A stretch of 64,000 nucleotides of DNA from an uncultured bacterium (GTDB lineage Bacteria > Cyanobacteriota > Vampirovibrionia > Gastranaerophilales > Gastranaerophilaceae), in assembly GCA_902780525.1 (NCBI GenBank), contig CACZFL010000003.1, forward strand, positions 1-64,000. Direction: 5' to 3'. Numbering within the stretch: position 1 is the first letter of the stretch; every line of letters begins with the position of its first letter. Made by a program: the position numbers and the translations under genes. The notes below the pieces were generated by a model. It was not told the DNA's origin and did no database searches. It worked only from the letters and a program-made list of their open reading frames with translations. Below, piece by piece: positions 25,532 through 59,060 of the stretch.

Positions 25532-28500
25532 ATGAGATTAGAAACAAGTTCTTTTTTTGATGCGTTAGCAGGCAATATAAAAAGAGGTAAGTCATTTACT
25601 CTCACGGGTTTAACGACTTTTTCACGTTTGCTTTTGCTTAAATATATCAGGCAGTTATCAAATAAAAAAATCCTGTTTATTACCTCAACCGAACAAAGTG
25701 CACTCAGATATTCTGCCGATTTGGAAAGATTGTTTGAGCTGGAGGCAAGTACGCTTCCGTATCAAAATATCTCGCCTTATGAAGTTGTTAATACCAACCT
25801 TTATGATTATCAAAAGCAAATCAGCACACTTTTTAATAAACCGGAAATAGTTATTGCTCCGGTTAAAACATTATTAGAAAAATTTCCAGATAAAGAGTTT
25901 TTTTTAAAAAACTCACTTAACCTGAAAGTCGGTAATAGTATTGACCAGAAAGAGCTTCTGTCAAAACTGATAAAACTTGGTTATAAACGATCTACAATGG
26001 TTTCAGATATCGGAGAATTTTCTATAAGGGGTGATATTGCTGATATTTATACATTAGAAGAAAATCCTGTCCGTATTGAGTTTTGGGGTGACGAGATTGT
26101 TGATATAAGGTACTTTGACAACGAAACCCAAAGAGCAATAACAGACCCCTCACCCCTAACTACTCTCCCAAAGGAGGCGAGGAGAAATACAAAGCCTTCA
26201 CAGATTCAGATTTACCCGCTTTACAAGTTTGTTTTACCTGAAGGGGTAAATGAAGGGGTAAATGAAGGGGGAAACAAAGGGGGAAATATAGCAAAAAATT
26301 TGCCTCAAAAAACAAAAGAACAAATTGAAAATGAGGGTTATTTTGAGGGGATAAATGTTTATCAATCTTACTTTAATGACAATTTAGTCAGTATTTTTGA
26401 TTATTTAAACGATTATATTGTTATTTTTGATGAACAGGCAGAAATTACTTCAAAGTACGGATTAATTACCGAAACCTTTGATAATCAATATAATGAAGGA
26501 CTAAAAACAGAACAGATTTACCCTTTAAAAGAATTAAATCATTATAATTTAGAGGATTTTACCAAACAAATTTCGGCTTTTCAGAAAATCGGCATGAATA
26601 ATTTTCTGTCCGATGAAAACAACGAAGTTATTGATATTGATTCAAGAAATATTCAGATTTTTGACGCAAATATGGAAGCGGTTGCAGAGTTTATACAGGA
26701 ACATAAAGGTTATCAAATCACTATTGCTACTGATTTTCATGAAAGAGTAAAAGAGGTTTTGGCTTCTTTTGAAATTTTTAATATCAACTTTATAAAAAAT
26801 ATTACTTCTCAGGGAACAATTATTCCTGAGGCTAAAATACTTTTGATTACAGACAGAGAACTTTTTAATAAAAGGCAAAAAGATATTCCTTCTAACCGCA
26901 AAAGACGGTATAAAGAAAAAGCAGAATATATTGAAAATATTAATGATATTAAAGAAGGAGAGTACGTTGTCCACTCCGTTCACGGTGTCGGAATCTATAA
27001 AGGGCTTACCAAACAGGAATTTGACGGACAGTTAAAAGATTATTTGACAATAGAGTACGCAAATAATGACAAACTGCATATTCCCGCAGAACAGATAAAT
27101 ATGCTCTGCCGTTACAGGGGCTCAGGACAAGTCAAACCACAGCTTTCAAGAATGGGCGGCTCGGATTGGGAGAGCACAAAAACAAAAGTCAAAAAGGCTG
27201 TTGAAACAATTGCTTACGACCTGTTACGCCTATATGCAAGAAGAAAAATGCAGCAGGGAATAGAGTTTGCTCCGGATAGTCCGCTTCAGTTAGAAATGGA
27301 AGACACGTTTGAATACATAGAAACCCCTGATCAGCTGAAAGCAATTAATCAAATAAAAGAGGATATGGAAAGTCCAAACCCTATGGACAGACTTGTCTGC
27401 GGCGATGTCGGATTCGGTAAAACTGAAGTTGCAATGCGTGCAATGTTTAAAGCGGTTACTTCGCTTAAACAGGTTGCCGTAATTGTTCCGACAACAGTTC
27501 TTGCACTTCAGCATTATCAAACTATTAATGACAGATTTAAGCCGTTTGGGATTGATGTAGAGCTTCTTTGTCGATTTAGAAGTACAAAAGAAAGGAATGA
27601 AACGCTCAAAAACCTTGCAACAGGGAAATGTGATGTAGTTATAGCAACCCATGCACTACTTCAGGACAAAGTTATTTTTAAGGATTTGGGCTTGCTTGTA
27701 ATTGACGAGGAGCACAGATTTGGAGTAAGACACAAGGAAAAACTAAAAGAGTTCAGAGAAAATATTGATATTATATCGATGTCAGCAACACCTATTCCGA
27801 GAACTTTGTATATGTCTTTGTCAGGCATTAAAGATATTTCTGTTATAAACACTCCGCCTCAAAACCGCTTACCTATTAAGACTTATGTCGGTGAATACAA
27901 TGAGCAGACTGTTAAAAACGCTATTACAAATGAGCTTGACCGTGACGGACAGGTATTTTATCTCTATAACAGGGTTGAAACAATTGAAGAGTTTAAACTC
28001 GAACTTCAAAAACTTGTTCCGCACGCACGAATAGCGGTCGGTCATGGGCAACTGAGTGAAAAACAGCTTGAAGATGTAATTGTAGGTTTTGATAACCACG
28101 AAAGTGATATCTTACTTTGTACAACAATTATTGAAAACGGACTTGATATTCCAAACGCCAATACAATAATCATTCACGAATCCGACAAACTCGGTTTAGC
28201 ACAAATGTACCAACTCAGAGGCCGCGTCGGAAGAAGCGAAAAACAGGCATATTGCTATTGTTTATATAAGAAAAACAAAGAGCTTTCAGAAGAAGCAACC
28301 GAAAGGTTAAAGGCAATAAAAGAGTTCACGACACTAGGAAGCGGATACAGAATCGCTATGCGTGACGTTGAGATCAGAGGCGTCGGGAATATCTTGGGAA
28401 CAAAACAACACGGTCATATGATTAACGTAGGTTTTGATACCTATTGCCAGCTTCTTGAAGAAACCGTAAATGAACTTAAAGGAGAGAAAATAAAAGCTAA

Positions 28501-28990
28501 CAAGCCGACAATTGTTGATATTAATGTTACTGCTTATATTCCTGATGAATGGGTTGGTTCGACAGAACAGAAAATGATAGAATACAAGCGTTTGAGTGAC
28601 GTTAAAAATGAAACAGAGCTGAATTACATAGTATCTGAATGGAAAGACAGATTCTCACGTATTCCTGACGAAGTTGAAAACCTTATTAAATTAATTAAAA
28701 TCAGACTTACGGCAACGGATTGCGGAATATCAGTAATCAGAGAAGCCGGAACAGATATCAGAGTTTATACACCATTTACGCCATATGAATGGAATATAAT
28801 AAAACAGGGACTTCAAAAAGACATCGCTAAAAAATTGAAATTTACCGTAGCGCCAAAAACCTGCACCGAAGGAAAATCTATTATTTTAATAAATAATGAG
28901 TATTTAACTTTTGAAGAATTGTTTGATATTTTGACAGGATTATTTTATTACATAAAAGAAACCGCTAATAAATACGGCAACCAGCTTTAA
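25532..28990 (+). CDS. mfd: Transcription-repair coupling factor Mfd, with in-frame insertions
   Basis: Mfd removes RNA polymerase stalled at DNA lesions and recruits UvrA. The 1152-residue protein contains the UvrB-like N-terminal domains, the RNA-polymerase-interacting domain (EYVVHSVHGVGIYKG, about 475-490), and the RecG-like translocase with Walker A GDVGFGKTEVA, DEEH box VIDEEHRFGV, SATPIPRTL, and the TRG region (GRVGRSEKQAYCY). In the linker after the UvrB-homology region, residues about 204-224 (DPSPLTTLPKEARRN...) and 238-253 (four GxN(E/K/I) units) look like additions not expected in the family. The mRNA appears leaderless. Confidence 0.97.
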   Translation: MRLETSSFFDALAGNIKRGKSFTLTGLTTFSRLLLLKYIRQLSNKKILFITSTEQSALRYSADLERLFELEASTLPYQNISPYEVVNTNLYDYQKQISTLFNKPEIVIAPVKTLLEKFPDKEFFLKNSLNLKVGNSIDQKELLSKLIKLGYKRSTMVSDIGEFSIRGDIADIYTLEENPVRIEFWGDEIVDIRYFDNETQRAITDPSPLTTLPKEARRNTKPSQIQIYPLYKFVLPEGVNEGVNEGGNKGGNIAKNLPQKTKEQIENEGYFEGINVYQSYFNDNLVSIFDYLNDYIVIFDEQAEITSKYGLITETFDNQYNEGLKTEQIYPLKELNHYNLEDFTKQISAFQKIGMNNFLSDENNEVIDIDSRNIQIFDANMEAVAEFIQEHKGYQITIATDFHERVKEVLASFEIFNINFIKNITSQGTIIPEAKILLITDRELFNKRQKDIPSNRKRRYKEKAEYIENINDIKEGEYVVHSVHGVGIYKGLTKQEFDGQLKDYLTIEYANNDKLHIPAEQINMLCRYRGSGQVKPQLSRMGGSDWESTKTKVKKAVETIAYDLLRLYARRKMQQGIEFAPDSPLQLEMEDTFEYIETPDQLKAINQIKEDMESPNPMDRLVCGDVGFGKTEVAMRAMFKAVTSLKQVAVIVPTTVLALQHYQTINDRFKPFGIDVELLCRFRSTKERNETLKNLATGKCDVVIATHALLQDKVIFKDLGLLVIDEEHRFGVRHKEKLKEFRENIDIISMSATPIPRTLYMSLSGIKDISVINTPPQNRLPIKTYVGEYNEQTVKNAITNELDRDGQVFYLYNRVETIEEFKLELQKLVPHARIAVGHGQLSEKQLEDVIVGFDNHESDILLCTTIIENGLDIPNANTIIIHESDKLGLAQMYQLRGRVGRSEKQAYCYCLYKKNKELSEEATERLKAIKEFTTLGSGYRIAMRDVEIRGVGNILGTKQHGHMINVGFDTYCQLLEETVNELKGEKIKANKPTIVDINVTAYIPDEWVGSTEQKMIEYKRLSDVKNETELNYIVSEWKDRFSRIPDEVENLIKLIKIRLTATDCGISVIREAGTDIRVYTPFTPYEWNIIKQGLQKDIAKKLKFTVAPKTCTEGKSIILINNEYLTFEELFDILTGLFYYIKETANKYGNQL
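26243..26290 (+). repeat. Four tandem 12-bp repeats inside mfd
   Basis: Two exact copies of GGGGTAAATGAA are followed by two decayed copies (GGGGGAAACAAA, GGGGGAAATATA). The unit keeps the reading frame and encodes GVNE-GVNE-GGNK-GGNI. Its core is the 9-mer found dispersed through the window. Confidence 0.85.
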
Positions 28991-29024
28991 ATGTAAAAAT
29001 ATGTAACAATTACCCGAAATCAGC

Positions 29025-29051
29025 TAAAGATTTTTTTATTTTTGCCGATAT
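29025..29051 (+). promoter_or_regulatory. Sigma-28 (FliA)-type promoter
   Basis: TAAAGATT (29025-29032), an 11-nt spacer, and GCCGATAT (29044-29051) differ by one base each from the enterobacterial sigma-28 consensus TAAAGTTT-N11-GCCGATAA. It lies 45 nt before the small gene at 29096. Flagellar genes are present elsewhere in the window, so a FliA-type sigma factor is plausible. Confidence 0.65.
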
Positions 29052-29095
29052 GTAAGCTGTAAGATTTAAAATCGTCGTTTTTTGAGAGGTAAATT

Positions 29096-29224
29096 ATGGA
29101 ACAGGAAAAAACATTACAGCTTGATAAAGATTTAGAAAAAGACATTCAGGAATGCAAAAAAAATGCAGAGTTTATAGAAAAAGTTCTGACAATGCTTGTT
29201 AAAGGTTTTGCCCCTGAATACTAA
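29096..29224 (+). CDS. 42-residue protein behind a sigma-28-like promoter
   Basis: A small reading frame with GAGAGG seven bases before the ATG encodes a highly charged, helical protein: the first 30 residues are an amphipathic, coiled-coil-prone helix (LQLDKDLEKDIQECKKNAEF), then a hydrophobic patch (VLTMLVKGF). It is too short for FlgM and has no recognised domain. The promoter suggests late flagellar-class expression, so it may be a small flagellar accessory or regulatory protein; this is inference. It stands alone between mfd and the first bioG. Confidence 0.6.
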   Translation: MEQEKTLQLDKDLEKDIQECKKNAEFIEKVLTMLVKGFAPEY

Positions 29225-29288: not shown

Positions 29289-29939
29289 ATGAAACAATTT
29301 TACCTGGATAACAGTTCTGATAATCTTTTACTGTTTTTTGCAGGCTGGGGCTGTGATGAATACGAGTTTGAACATTTAACATCTGAATCTGATGTATTAA
29401 TTTTGTATGATTATACTGATTTAGAGTTAAATTTTGATTTTTCAAAATACAAAGAAATCAATTTGATTGCATTTTCGGCAGGTGTTTTTATCGCTTCTGT
29501 TTTTAATTTTGATTTCAAAGTTAATAAAAAAATTGCAATCGACGGAAATCCATATCTTTTTGACGAACATTTCGGGCTGTCTAAAAGTATTCAGGATGCT
29601 CTTTATAATGTTACAGAAGAAAATGCAGAAGATTTTGCAAAAAATTACCTTGTTAAAACAGAAGAAGAATACAAAAATTTTCACCCTGCAAGACGAACTC
29701 TTGAAAGCTGCAGGTTTGAGTTTGAGTGTTTAAAACAGATATACCGTTCTCAAAAGCAGAGTATTAAAGATATTTATGATTATGCATTAGTCGGCAAAGA
29801 TGACCCGATATTTAATGTTGAGGCACAGAAAGAGATTTACGGAAATCGCCTTTTTGTTATTGAAAATGCCCGTCACAACCTGTTTTTCAGAATAAAAAGC
29901 TATGAGGATTTATTCCGGTTTTGCAAAATATCTGTTTAG
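29289..29939 (+). CDS. bioG: BioG-type pimeloyl-ACP methyl ester esterase (copy 1)
   Basis: A 216-residue DUF452/BioG alpha/beta hydrolase. BioG removes the methyl group from pimeloyl-ACP methyl ester to release pimeloyl-ACP for biotin synthesis. Diagnostic features are LLLFFAGWGCDEYEF at residues 13-27, LILYDYTDLE, the nucleophile elbow AFSAGVF (Ser63), an Asp in VGKDDPIF and the His in NARHNLFFR. A second, divergent copy lies 3 kb away next to bioC. This one stands alone behind its own strong promoter and may be the more divergent in role. Confidence 0.8.
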   Translation: MKQFYLDNSSDNLLLFFAGWGCDEYEFEHLTSESDVLILYDYTDLELNFDFSKYKEINLIAFSAGVFIASVFNFDFKVNKKIAIDGNPYLFDEHFGLSKSIQDALYNVTEENAEDFAKNYLVKTEEEYKNFHPARRTLESCRFEFECLKQIYRSQKQSIKDIYDYALVGKDDPIFNVEAQKEIYGNRLFVIENARHNLFFRIKSYEDLFRFCKISV

Positions 29940-32073: not shown

Positions 32074-32802
32074 CTATTTTTGAATCTTTATGTAAATTGG
32101 ATTATAAGTAAGTGTGGGACGATTTGCACAAAAACTGTTATATTCTTTTTTAAAATTTATTAAATCGCGTTTTGTCCAGGTTTCTGACGAAAGAGCATTT
32201 ACTCCGGTATTTTGAATATGTTTTAAGACCTCCTGGGGAGTTTTGAACGCCATAACCCAGGCTTCTTCATCAATTAACGGATTGTGCTTTTTTAGTTTTT
32301 CTTCGTATTCTTTTTTTGAAAAATACGGAAGCGTTTTTCCGGTAACGTAAAATATTTCTCTGAAATTTTCCGTTCCAAATGAAGAAAAAATCAGTGTTCC
32401 GCCATTATTAAGTTTTTCTGCCAATTTTTCAACAAAACCTGTTACATCATCAACCCACTGGAGAGCTGCGTTTGAAATTATTAAATCATATTTTTTATTA
32501 TCCGAAATAATGTATTCTTCAATATCCTCTGAGATAAAATTTATTTGAGGATGTATCGCTTTTATGTACTCTTCGCAGTCAGGCACAATATCAATTGCAG
32601 TATATTTTTGAAACGAGATATTACTAACGGCAAGCTCTGTTAATAAACCGGTTCCACAGCCTATTTCTAATACATCAGAACATTCATAGCCAGAAGAAAG
32701 CATTTTAATAAGCTTTTCAGCCATTCTTTTTTGAATACGCGCATTTTCATTGTACTCTCTGAGTTTTCTTCCGAAACGTTTTTTTATGAGCTCTTTATTC
32801 AT
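32074..32802 (-). CDS. bioC: Malonyl-ACP O-methyltransferase BioC
   Basis: BioC methylates malonyl-ACP (or malonyl-CoA) with SAM to start pimelate synthesis on the fatty acid machinery. The 242-residue protein has the BioC opening KKRFGRKLREYNENARIQ, SAM motif I VLEIGCGTGLLTE, the acidic AIDIVPDCEEY, and motif IV SNAALQWVDD, all typical of BioC. I choose the ATG at 32802 because it overlaps the bioG stop (ATGA) and has GGAG upstream. The coupling to bioG gives the classical bioC-bioG pair that makes the pimeloyl moiety of biotin. Confidence 0.9.
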   Translation of the reverse strand: MNKELIKKRFGRKLREYNENARIQKRMAEKLIKMLSSGYECSDVLEIGCGTGLLTELAVSNISFQKYTAIDIVPDCEEYIKAIHPQINFISEDIEEYIISDNKKYDLIISNAALQWVDDVTGFVEKLAEKLNNGGTLIFSSFGTENFREIFYVTGKTLPYFSKKEYEEKLKKHNPLIDEEAWVMAFKTPQEVLKHIQNTGVNALSSETWTKRDLINFKKEYNSFCANRPTLTYNPIYIKIQK

Positions 32803-33413
32803 AATAAATCGCTCCATTTTTTGTACAGGTTGAATGGCGCATGACCGCTTTCTGTATTAGGTTCTGCTCCCCAGAATGCACACTGGTTTTTTGTTGGTAT
32901 GATTCTGTCTTTTGAAGATATAATTACTCTGTCATATTTAAAATCCTGATTAGCTTCGTAGTGCGTAAGTGCTTCAAGCTCTGTTTTTTGGTTTTCAAAC
33001 TCTCTATTTGGGGGATAAATATCATCCGGAATGTCTGAATACATTGATTTTATAAACCGCTCTGCACCTTCAGATGAAAATCCTCTAAGAGTCAAGTCAT
33101 AAATCTTGTTTGGGATTCCAAACCTGTCATCAACAGGTTTAAGCGTTCCGTTTATTGCAGTTTTTGAAACGTAATCAATATCAAAAAGTGTTGCAATCAT
33201 TACTCCCATCGACCAGGCAACAAGATATTTTTGCGGGAAAATATTTAATTTATCAAAATCAAAATCCGTTTCAAGCGAATTGTAATCATAAAACATCAAA
33301 ACATCATAATCTTCGAGTGAAAGGTGATTAACAACGCATTCATCCATACCCCAACCGTTAAAAAATATGATTAGTTTTTGATTATTTTTCTGATTAAGCC
33401 ATTTATATTTCAT
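32799..33413 (-). CDS. bioG: BioG-type pimeloyl-ACP methyl ester esterase (copy 2)
   Basis: A 204-residue DUF452/BioG protein: IIFFNGWGMDECVV (residues 15-28), LMFYDYNSLE, nucleophile elbow AWSMGVM (Ser68), catalytic His in ESGHAPFN, and the NGTLKPVDDRFGIP block typical of BioG. It is the likely partner of bioC, whose start overlaps its stop. It begins 11 nt after the M16 peptidase gene, so the three genes may be one transcript. It differs considerably from copy 1. Confidence 0.88.
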   Translation of the reverse strand: MKYKWLNQKNNQKLIIFFNGWGMDECVVNHLSLEDYDVLMFYDYNSLETDFDFDKLNIFPQKYLVAWSMGVMIATLFDIDYVSKTAINGTLKPVDDRFGIPNKIYDLTLRGFSSEGAERFIKSMYSDIPDDIYPPNREFENQKTELEALTHYEANQDFKYDRVIISSKDRIIPTKNQCAFWGAEPNTESGHAPFNLYKKWSDLL

Positions 33414-58145: not shown

Positions 58146-58922
58146 TTATTTTTCCCCTTCTAATTCTATCTTAGCGTTTTTCCACAAATCATTAAATTCC
58201 TCAAACGAGTAATCTTCAAACGGCTTTGTTTTAAGTTCTTCCATTTTTTTAAACCGTTTTGTGAATTTTTTGTTTGCACTCAATAACGCTTGTTCTGCAT
58301 CAATTTTATACCAGCGTGCAAGGTTTACGGTTGCAAAGAAAATATCGCCCATTTCGTCTTCCATTCTGTCTTTGTCACCGCTTTCAACAGCTTCTTCAAA
58401 CTCTTTGTATTCTGATTTTATGCAGTCCTTGAGGCTCTCAACGTTTTCCCATTCAAATCCGACTTTAACAACTTTTTTGCTGATTTTTTGGGCTGACATC
58501 AAAGCGGACTGCGACTTTGAAATCCCGTCTAATATTGATTTTCTGTACGTTTTTTCTTCCTGTTTAAGTTTATCCCAATTAACTACAACGTCATTAGAGT
58601 TATCAACGTGAGCATTTCCAAATACGTGCGGATGGCGGTGAATAAGCTTGTCTGAAAGCTCTTTCGCCACGTCTTCAATATCAAATTCGTTGTTCTCTTT
58701 TGCAATTTGAGAATGAAGAACAACCTGCAGAAGAACATCACCCAGTTCTTCCCTTAAATTATTGATATCTCCGTCATCAATCGCATCAACGGCTTCATAA
58801 GCTTCTTCAAGCATATTCGGTCTGAGAGTTTTATGAGTCTGTTCCCTGTCCCACGGGCAGCCGTTTTCACTCCGCAAAATCGCAATTATATCAACAAGTT
58901 TTTCTAAATTCGGATATTTCAT
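58146..58922 (-). CDS. mazG: Nucleoside triphosphate pyrophosphohydrolase MazG
   Basis: MazG hydrolyses NTPs to NMPs and PPi, removing aberrant nucleotides. The 258-residue protein has two MazG domains; the first shows CPWDREQTHKTLRPNMLEEAYEAVDAI and LREELGDVLLQVVLHSQIA, the second EEAVESGDKDRMEDEMGDIFFATVNLARW (short form: EDEMGDIFFATVNL). EExxE/ExxD metal motifs are intact in both. TATAAT ends 6 nt before the ATG. Confidence 0.95.
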   Translation of the reverse strand: MKYPNLEKLVDIIAILRSENGCPWDREQTHKTLRPNMLEEAYEAVDAIDDGDINNLREELGDVLLQVVLHSQIAKENNEFDIEDVAKELSDKLIHRHPHVFGNAHVDNSNDVVVNWDKLKQEEKTYRKSILDGISKSQSALMSAQKISKKVVKVGFEWENVESLKDCIKSEYKEFEEAVESGDKDRMEDEMGDIFFATVNLARWYKIDAEQALLSANKKFTKRFKKMEELKTKPFEDYSFEEFNDLWKNAKIELEGEK

Positions 58923-58934: not shown

Positions 58935-59060
58935 TCAAGGGTTGTGGAGTAAATATATTTTTGTAAACATTTGTAAATGAAACGTCAAAATATGGCAAAA
59001 AATTAAATTTATAAAATTTACAACCAATGAAAAAAGAAGCAAAAAAGGAAATCAGATGGA

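Follow-up and report, generated by a model that had tools for sequence, protein, structure and literature searches.

FliA (sigma-28) promoters in a genus of Gastranaerophilales are combined with a fixed upstream direct repeat that matches HLR1, the site of the response regulator RpaB, and we propose that the two form a composite RpaB-type/FliA promoter class (probability about 0.6, judged from sequence). The host lineage, uncultured and gut-dwelling, is a non-photosynthetic, melainabacterial sister group of the photosynthetic Cyanobacteria, which use HLR1 to control photosynthesis genes by light. The window (the whole stretch of 64,000 nt that was analyzed, G000:C3:1-64000, from a genome of 2.09 Mb) holds one such promoter, placed ahead of a 42-codon gene, and the comparison set comprised 58 same-genus Gastranaerophilales genomes. 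Under the proposed model, an OmpR-family response regulator, most likely RpaB-like, would bind the HLR1-type repeat at 28990 to 29007 and recruit RNA polymerase with FliA to the box at 29025 to 29051; transcription from about 29058 would then yield a 42-residue helical protein (“42-mer”) from a monocistronic unit.

The promoter consists of a sigma-28 -35 box (TAAAGATT, 29025 to 29032, plus strand), kept in 14/14 orthologues, and a -10 box (GCCGATAT, 29044 to 29051, plus strand), giving TAAAGATT-N11-GCCGATAT with a spacer of 11 nt; the usual FliA spacing would place the transcription start near 29057 to 29059. The -10 box ends 44 nt before the ATG of the 42-codon frame (29096 to 29224, plus strand; MEQEKTLQLDKDLEKDIQECKKNAEFIEKVLTMLVKGFAPEY), which has a GAGAGG ribosome-binding site (29084 to 29089, plus strand) whose GAGG is retained in most orthologues. 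Promoter sequence, spacing, ribosome site and frame are all as described in the initial annotation. The box differs by one mismatch from TAAAGTTT-N11-GCCGATAW and is the only match to this pattern with at most one mismatch in the window; dinucleotide shuffling of the window gave such a match in 0 of 100 cases. The strict E. coli consensus is missed at two positions (0.13 such sites expected per window), a figure that favors a chance FliA-like box in front of a chance open reading frame, and taken alone the box is moderately significant, suggestive rather than conclusive. Chance is nonetheless refuted, since 14 species conserve the box, the repeat and the frame amid differing neighboring genes, and we assign it a negligible likelihood. 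The box is accepted as a real FliA promoter because of its context in the genome and the genus and its conservation upstream of every orthologue. The initial annotation had made its reading depend on a FliA homologue, and the genome encodes one (G000:C3:169970-170632; TIGR02479, 233.5 bits versus a cut-off of 189.6); FliA scored above the curated cut-off in 55/58 same-genus genomes. Perfect FliA boxes occurred in all 58 genomes, at 3 to 29 per genome (17 in the genome under study, plus 13 with one mismatch), and the reversed pattern gave 3 matches in total over the same 58 genomes. A genuine FliA promoter and a genuine gene at this locus are therefore very probable. In box sequence, spacing and the presence of a FliA gene above cut-off, the promoter resembles the class-3 flagellar promoters of FliA (consensus TAAAGTTT-N11-GCCGATAA). 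It departs from these classical promoters in that a fixed upstream repeat, absent from them, has been added, and in that the class drives mostly unknown proteins here, with most flagellin genes examined lacking a box.

The repeat, which the initial annotation had missed, lies on the minus strand at 28990 to 29007 (GTTACATA-TT-TTTACATT; plus strand TGTAAAAATATGTAAC). Its 18 bp begin 35 bp ahead of the -35 box and agree exactly with KTTACAWW-N2-KTTACAWW, a predicted site for an RpaB-type (OmpR-family) regulator. Across the genus, 120 distinct FliA-type promoters (orthologous ones included, and hence not independent) were aligned at the first T of TAAAGTTT. TGTAA began at -23 in 92 of these and at -33 in 81. 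Repeats of 10 or 11 bp were present in 83/120, versus 0/115 control stretches taken 600 nt away, and 114/120 had at least one phased half-site copy. Of the 30 FliA boxes in the genome under study, 28 had a phased half-site copy and 17 had, on the opposite strand, the exact 18-bp KTTACAWW-N2-KTTACAWW; an HLR1 with at most one mismatch began 35, 45 or 46 bp upstream of 22 of the 30. Exact HLR1 sites numbered 38 in 1.67 Mb of this genome (0 to 2 expected), and in 15 cases a FliA box followed at exactly 35 or 45 bp. None of the 11 two-mismatch FliA boxes had the exact repeat, which indicates that the repeat marks true promoters. Two FliA-like boxes met by chance in other families were without it, so the link between repeat and FliA may be genus-specific.

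KTTACAWW-N2-KTTACAWW defines HLR1, to which the OmpR-family regulator RpaB binds (PMC13421787; see also PMC6331805). RpaB activates when this site lies at about -66 to -45, and it represses where HLR1 covers the start (PMC13421787). Counted from a start at 29058, as FliA spacing implies, the repeat would span about -68 to -51. This is an activating-type position, and we predict an activating role for the repeat and an RpaB-like regulator. Homologues of RpaA, RpaB and NblS in Melainabacteria, possibly with another function, were noted in 2013 (PMC3787301), and the three proteins have been reported as ancestral to three melainabacterial orders, with RpaB homologues in all three orders examined (PMC4040986). 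About 80% of the genome under study contains two OmpR-family regulators (at about 100.9 to 101.6 kb of G000:C3 and about 55.6 to 56.3 kb of G000:C8), both with RpaB (NF045944) as their best NCBIfam model but below its cut-off (206 and 199 bits versus 330), and the second resembles RpaA by eye. That no regulator in this portion scored above the RpaB cut-off leaves space for an unrelated activator at the TGTAAC repeat, with the HLR1 match arising by convergence. The sequence is AT-rich, OmpR-family sites are commonly 10- to 11-bp direct repeats, and a 10-bp TGTAAC repeat could be recognized by a different OmpR-family protein. Convergence would, however, have to produce the full 18-bp HLR1 at 17/30 FliA promoters of the genome exactly and at 22/30 in phase with at most one mismatch. 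The G and C positions of the repeat are also strongly conserved, unlike those of an AT-rich UP element, and the RpaB homologues reported across the melainabacterial orders (PMC4040986) point the same way. We regard convergence as a possible but somewhat doubtful explanation, and predict an RpaB-type activator at the repeat as the probable one.

The arrangement shares with the HLR1/NblS-RpaB system of cyanobacteria the exact 18-bp consensus and the upstream activating-type position. It differs from that system in its non-photosynthetic lineage and in having sigma-28 boxes in place of photosynthesis promoters, and its regulator is a putative one. No target of RpaA, RpaB or NblS in Melainabacteria has been proposed in the melainabacterial literature examined, which also made no mention of FliA, and the best literature matches for RpaB with FliA did not feature RpaB. 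A phased HLR1 at nearly every FliA-type promoter of the genus would offer a concrete set of targets for an RpaB-type regulator. It may show what such a regulator does in non-photosynthetic relatives of cyanobacteria, and bears on the role of a light-linked regulator before, or apart from, photosynthesis.

The FliA regulon of the genome includes an HD-GYP-type protein, transglycosylase-like and C-terminal-protease-like proteins (by inspection), and many unknown proteins. Flagellin-family genes were found in 58/58 same-genus genomes. When eight upstream regions of the flagellin genes L262 to L273 were scored, seven were without a FliA-type box and that of L264 had one with two mismatches. The sigma-28 regulon defined in this way excludes the majority of the flagellin genes examined, and the new small-protein families within it include one that is nearly genus-wide. 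The initial annotation had suggested a small flagellar-class protein: control by FliA stands, while the word “flagellar” may be too narrow, given that most flagellin genes examined have no such promoter and that the regulon consists mostly of uncharacterized proteins. Among these are FliA-driven proteins of 330 to 440 aa starting MG(M/L)S/A..AR (L201:2855-4186, L125, L104 and L135), which have no Pfam domain and recur within and between genomes. Four further short open reading frames (L101, L102, L110 and L122, of 46, 42, 35 and 52 aa) lie 20 to 60 nt behind FliA boxes in the same genome and have ribosome sites.

A translated search recovered the 42-mer from 13 additional same-genus genomes (51 to 90% identity; a longer relative occurs in G037), and a profile search returned the same 14 carriers, own genome included, among the 58. 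The other carriers are mostly rumen metagenome assemblies. Over the last 36 codons, mean pS was 0.67 and mean pN 0.16, with pN below pS in 91/91 pairs, and variable columns at codon positions 1, 2 and 3 numbered 20, 10 and 33 of 36; the frame is under purifying selection. Positions invariant among the orthologues are D10, D16, C20, K21, E25, E28, K29, L31 to M33, V35 to F38, E41 and Y42. The pattern of selection speaks strongly against a FliA-dependent small RNA that contains the open reading frame by accident and in which the transcript, not the peptide, would matter. E. coli does have FliA-dependent small RNAs (PMC10578931), and this precedent is the point in favor of the idea. At this locus, though, the ribosome site is conserved, pN is far below pS, and the codon-position pattern is that of a coding frame; there was also no excess of secondary structure (z = -0.34), on which ground an RNA-element reading of the locus was rejected. 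We consider a small RNA very unlikely. AlphaFold2 gave a single helix at residues 2 to 38 (mean pLDDT 91), the same with and without an alignment, in keeping with the “charged helix with a hydrophobic end” of the initial annotation. I17, C20, A24, I27, L31, L34 and F38 fall in a 3-4 heptad pattern (by inspection), making a partner-binding amphipathic helix the likely, predicted form of the protein. Searches of Pfam, PHROGs, NCBIfam and PDB placed the 42-mer in no known family, with no E-value better than about 0.02, and a match to EnvZ (E = 0.9) was dismissed as weak and resembling helix background.

A FliA box stands upstream of the 42-mer in 14/14 copies (10 perfect and 4 with one mismatch, about 60 to 80 nt before the start), and 12 of these 14 promoters have a phased HLR1 with at most one mismatch. 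With FliA encoded in the genome and the frame under selection, the conserved box upholds the suggestion of an undescribed small FliA-class protein. The genes on either side of it vary: here, mfd lies on one side and an alpha/beta-hydrolase gene on the other (both named by inspection), five other copies adjoin a transporter-like gene, and elsewhere other genes are found. Terminator-like hairpins directly 3' of several copies (by inspection) suggest that the unit is probably monocistronic. Conserved co-transcription with the downstream alpha/beta-hydrolase gene was rejected, as orthologues have other or convergent genes downstream. Close to the locus, a small alpha/beta-hydrolase-like protein is encoded twice (29289 to 29939, plus strand; 32799 to 33413, minus strand), the two versions being distant paralogues with 34% identity, and the Mfd-like protein contains a short glycine-asparagine repeat (26240 to 26295; GVNEGVNEGGNKGGN). 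Absence of the frame where its flanking genes are retained had been named as a sign against the gene. The hydrolase orthologue is indeed kept in G012 and G039, both without the 42-mer; gene movement blurs the comparison, since the 42-mer sits at other loci in carriers. Restriction of the gene to flagellated genomes had also been suggested as informative, and all carriers do have FliA and flagellin. The comparison cannot discriminate, because flagellin-family genes are present throughout the genus and only 14 genomes have the frame. As 44 flagellated genomes of the genus do without the 42-mer gene, it is an accessory and not a core flagellar gene.

The 42-mer appears to derive from a more widespread operon. 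In the genome under study, a perfect FliA box (L100, G000:C2:86737-86763) precedes open reading frames of 60 and 82 aa, whose products (“60-mer” and “82-mer”) were detected by profile in 56/58 and 55/58 genomes of the genus, respectively, with the misses being incomplete or fragmented assemblies. Neither gave a match at a convincing E-value in other genera. Automatic start assignment succeeded for 26 operon copies, and all of them had a FliA box at 0 to 2 mismatches (5 to 7 in upstream control stretches) and HLR1 with at most one mismatch exactly 35 bp upstream of that box. The C-terminal half of the 60-mer matched the C-terminal part of the 42-mers in a profile search (E = 6 × 10−5 in the genome under study; 3.5 × 10−9 in G049), a profile of four 60-mers matched 42-mers at E = 3.5 × 10−9 to 1.7 × 10−3, and the 60-mer of G037 ends in LTSLVKGFAPEY, the C terminus of the 42-mer (E = 1.1 × 10−13). 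From these C-terminal matches and the 60-mer of G037, sequence comparison identifies the 42-mer as a shorter paralogue of the product of the operon's first gene: it stands alone, with neither the N-terminal DEHEMLVEYSEMTAFNF motif nor the 82-aa partner gene. The 82-mer itself gave weak matches to phage “tail assembly” proteins (E = 0.008).

Most likely, the peptide would act within the motility or export system as a helix that binds a partner. In the model, it would be a cytoplasmic helix that docks on a motility or export partner via its conserved face and the C-terminal LTMLVKGFxxEY, a prediction that we make with low confidence. Its leading versions, offered with equal caution, are an export-chaperone-like adaptor and a FliA feedback ligand in place of the undetected FlgM. 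FlgM (PF04316) was undetectable in 57 genomes of the lineage, although FliA is close to universal there; the control genomes of E. coli, B. subtilis and T. maritima all gave a match in this search. An anti-sigma role is therefore conceivable for the 60-mer or the 42-mer. The 42-mer, and with it the 60-mer, could replace FlgM as a peptide that inhibits sigma-28 while being expressed from a sigma-28 promoter, a negative feedback. Like FlgM, the 42-mer is small, helical and FliA-driven, and the 60-mer operon is nearly genus-wide. Unlike FlgM, it has no matching sequence (the PF04316 domain was absent from the 42-, 60- and 82-mers, and FlgM homology of the 42-mer was rejected on that account), is present in a minority of FliA-bearing genomes, and has about half the length of FlgM, bearing out the earlier remark that it is too short. 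Its presence in only 14/58 genomes argues against an essential role such as that of sole anti-sigma factor. Other genera of the order have neither detectable FlgM nor the 42-/60-mer family, so FliA evidently manages without both, and FlgM may be too divergent for its profile. A replacement for FlgM is therefore rather unlikely. The small proteins could instead be adaptors or chaperones for flagellar export substrates, like FliS, FliT or FlgN in role and not in family. Small, conserved, helical proteins are typical of export chaperones, and the FliA regulon of the genome is largely made up of 120- to 490-aa proteins without a known domain. Against this, chaperone genes usually adjoin the substrate gene and the 42-mer has no fixed neighbor, and its 42 residues are fewer than those of known export chaperones, so that this role too is suggested tentatively. 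An export adaptor for FliA-regulated proteins and an anti-sigma peptide appear equally plausible, each with a low likelihood. The wider reading in which the small-protein family is a dedicated output of the circuit is likewise unlikely, though well short of negligible.

HLR1 matches were also seen apart from FliA boxes. A second exact match in the window (58960 to 58977, minus strand) lies in the gap upstream of a minus-strand gene (58146 to 58922), and the flagellin-family gene L267 has an HLR1-like repeat upstream; neither is accompanied by a FliA box. The genome under study further contains a second promoter class, in which an exact HLR1 is followed by TACTTTATATAT, 54 to 56 nt from the HLR1 start, without a FliA box. 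Its members are at L305 (3182, minus strand), L307 (2929, minus), L309 (1767, minus), L313 (14758, plus), L325 (10855, plus), L331 (12550, plus) and L334 (3557, plus). They precede further mostly unknown proteins, suggesting that another sigma factor may share the regulator.
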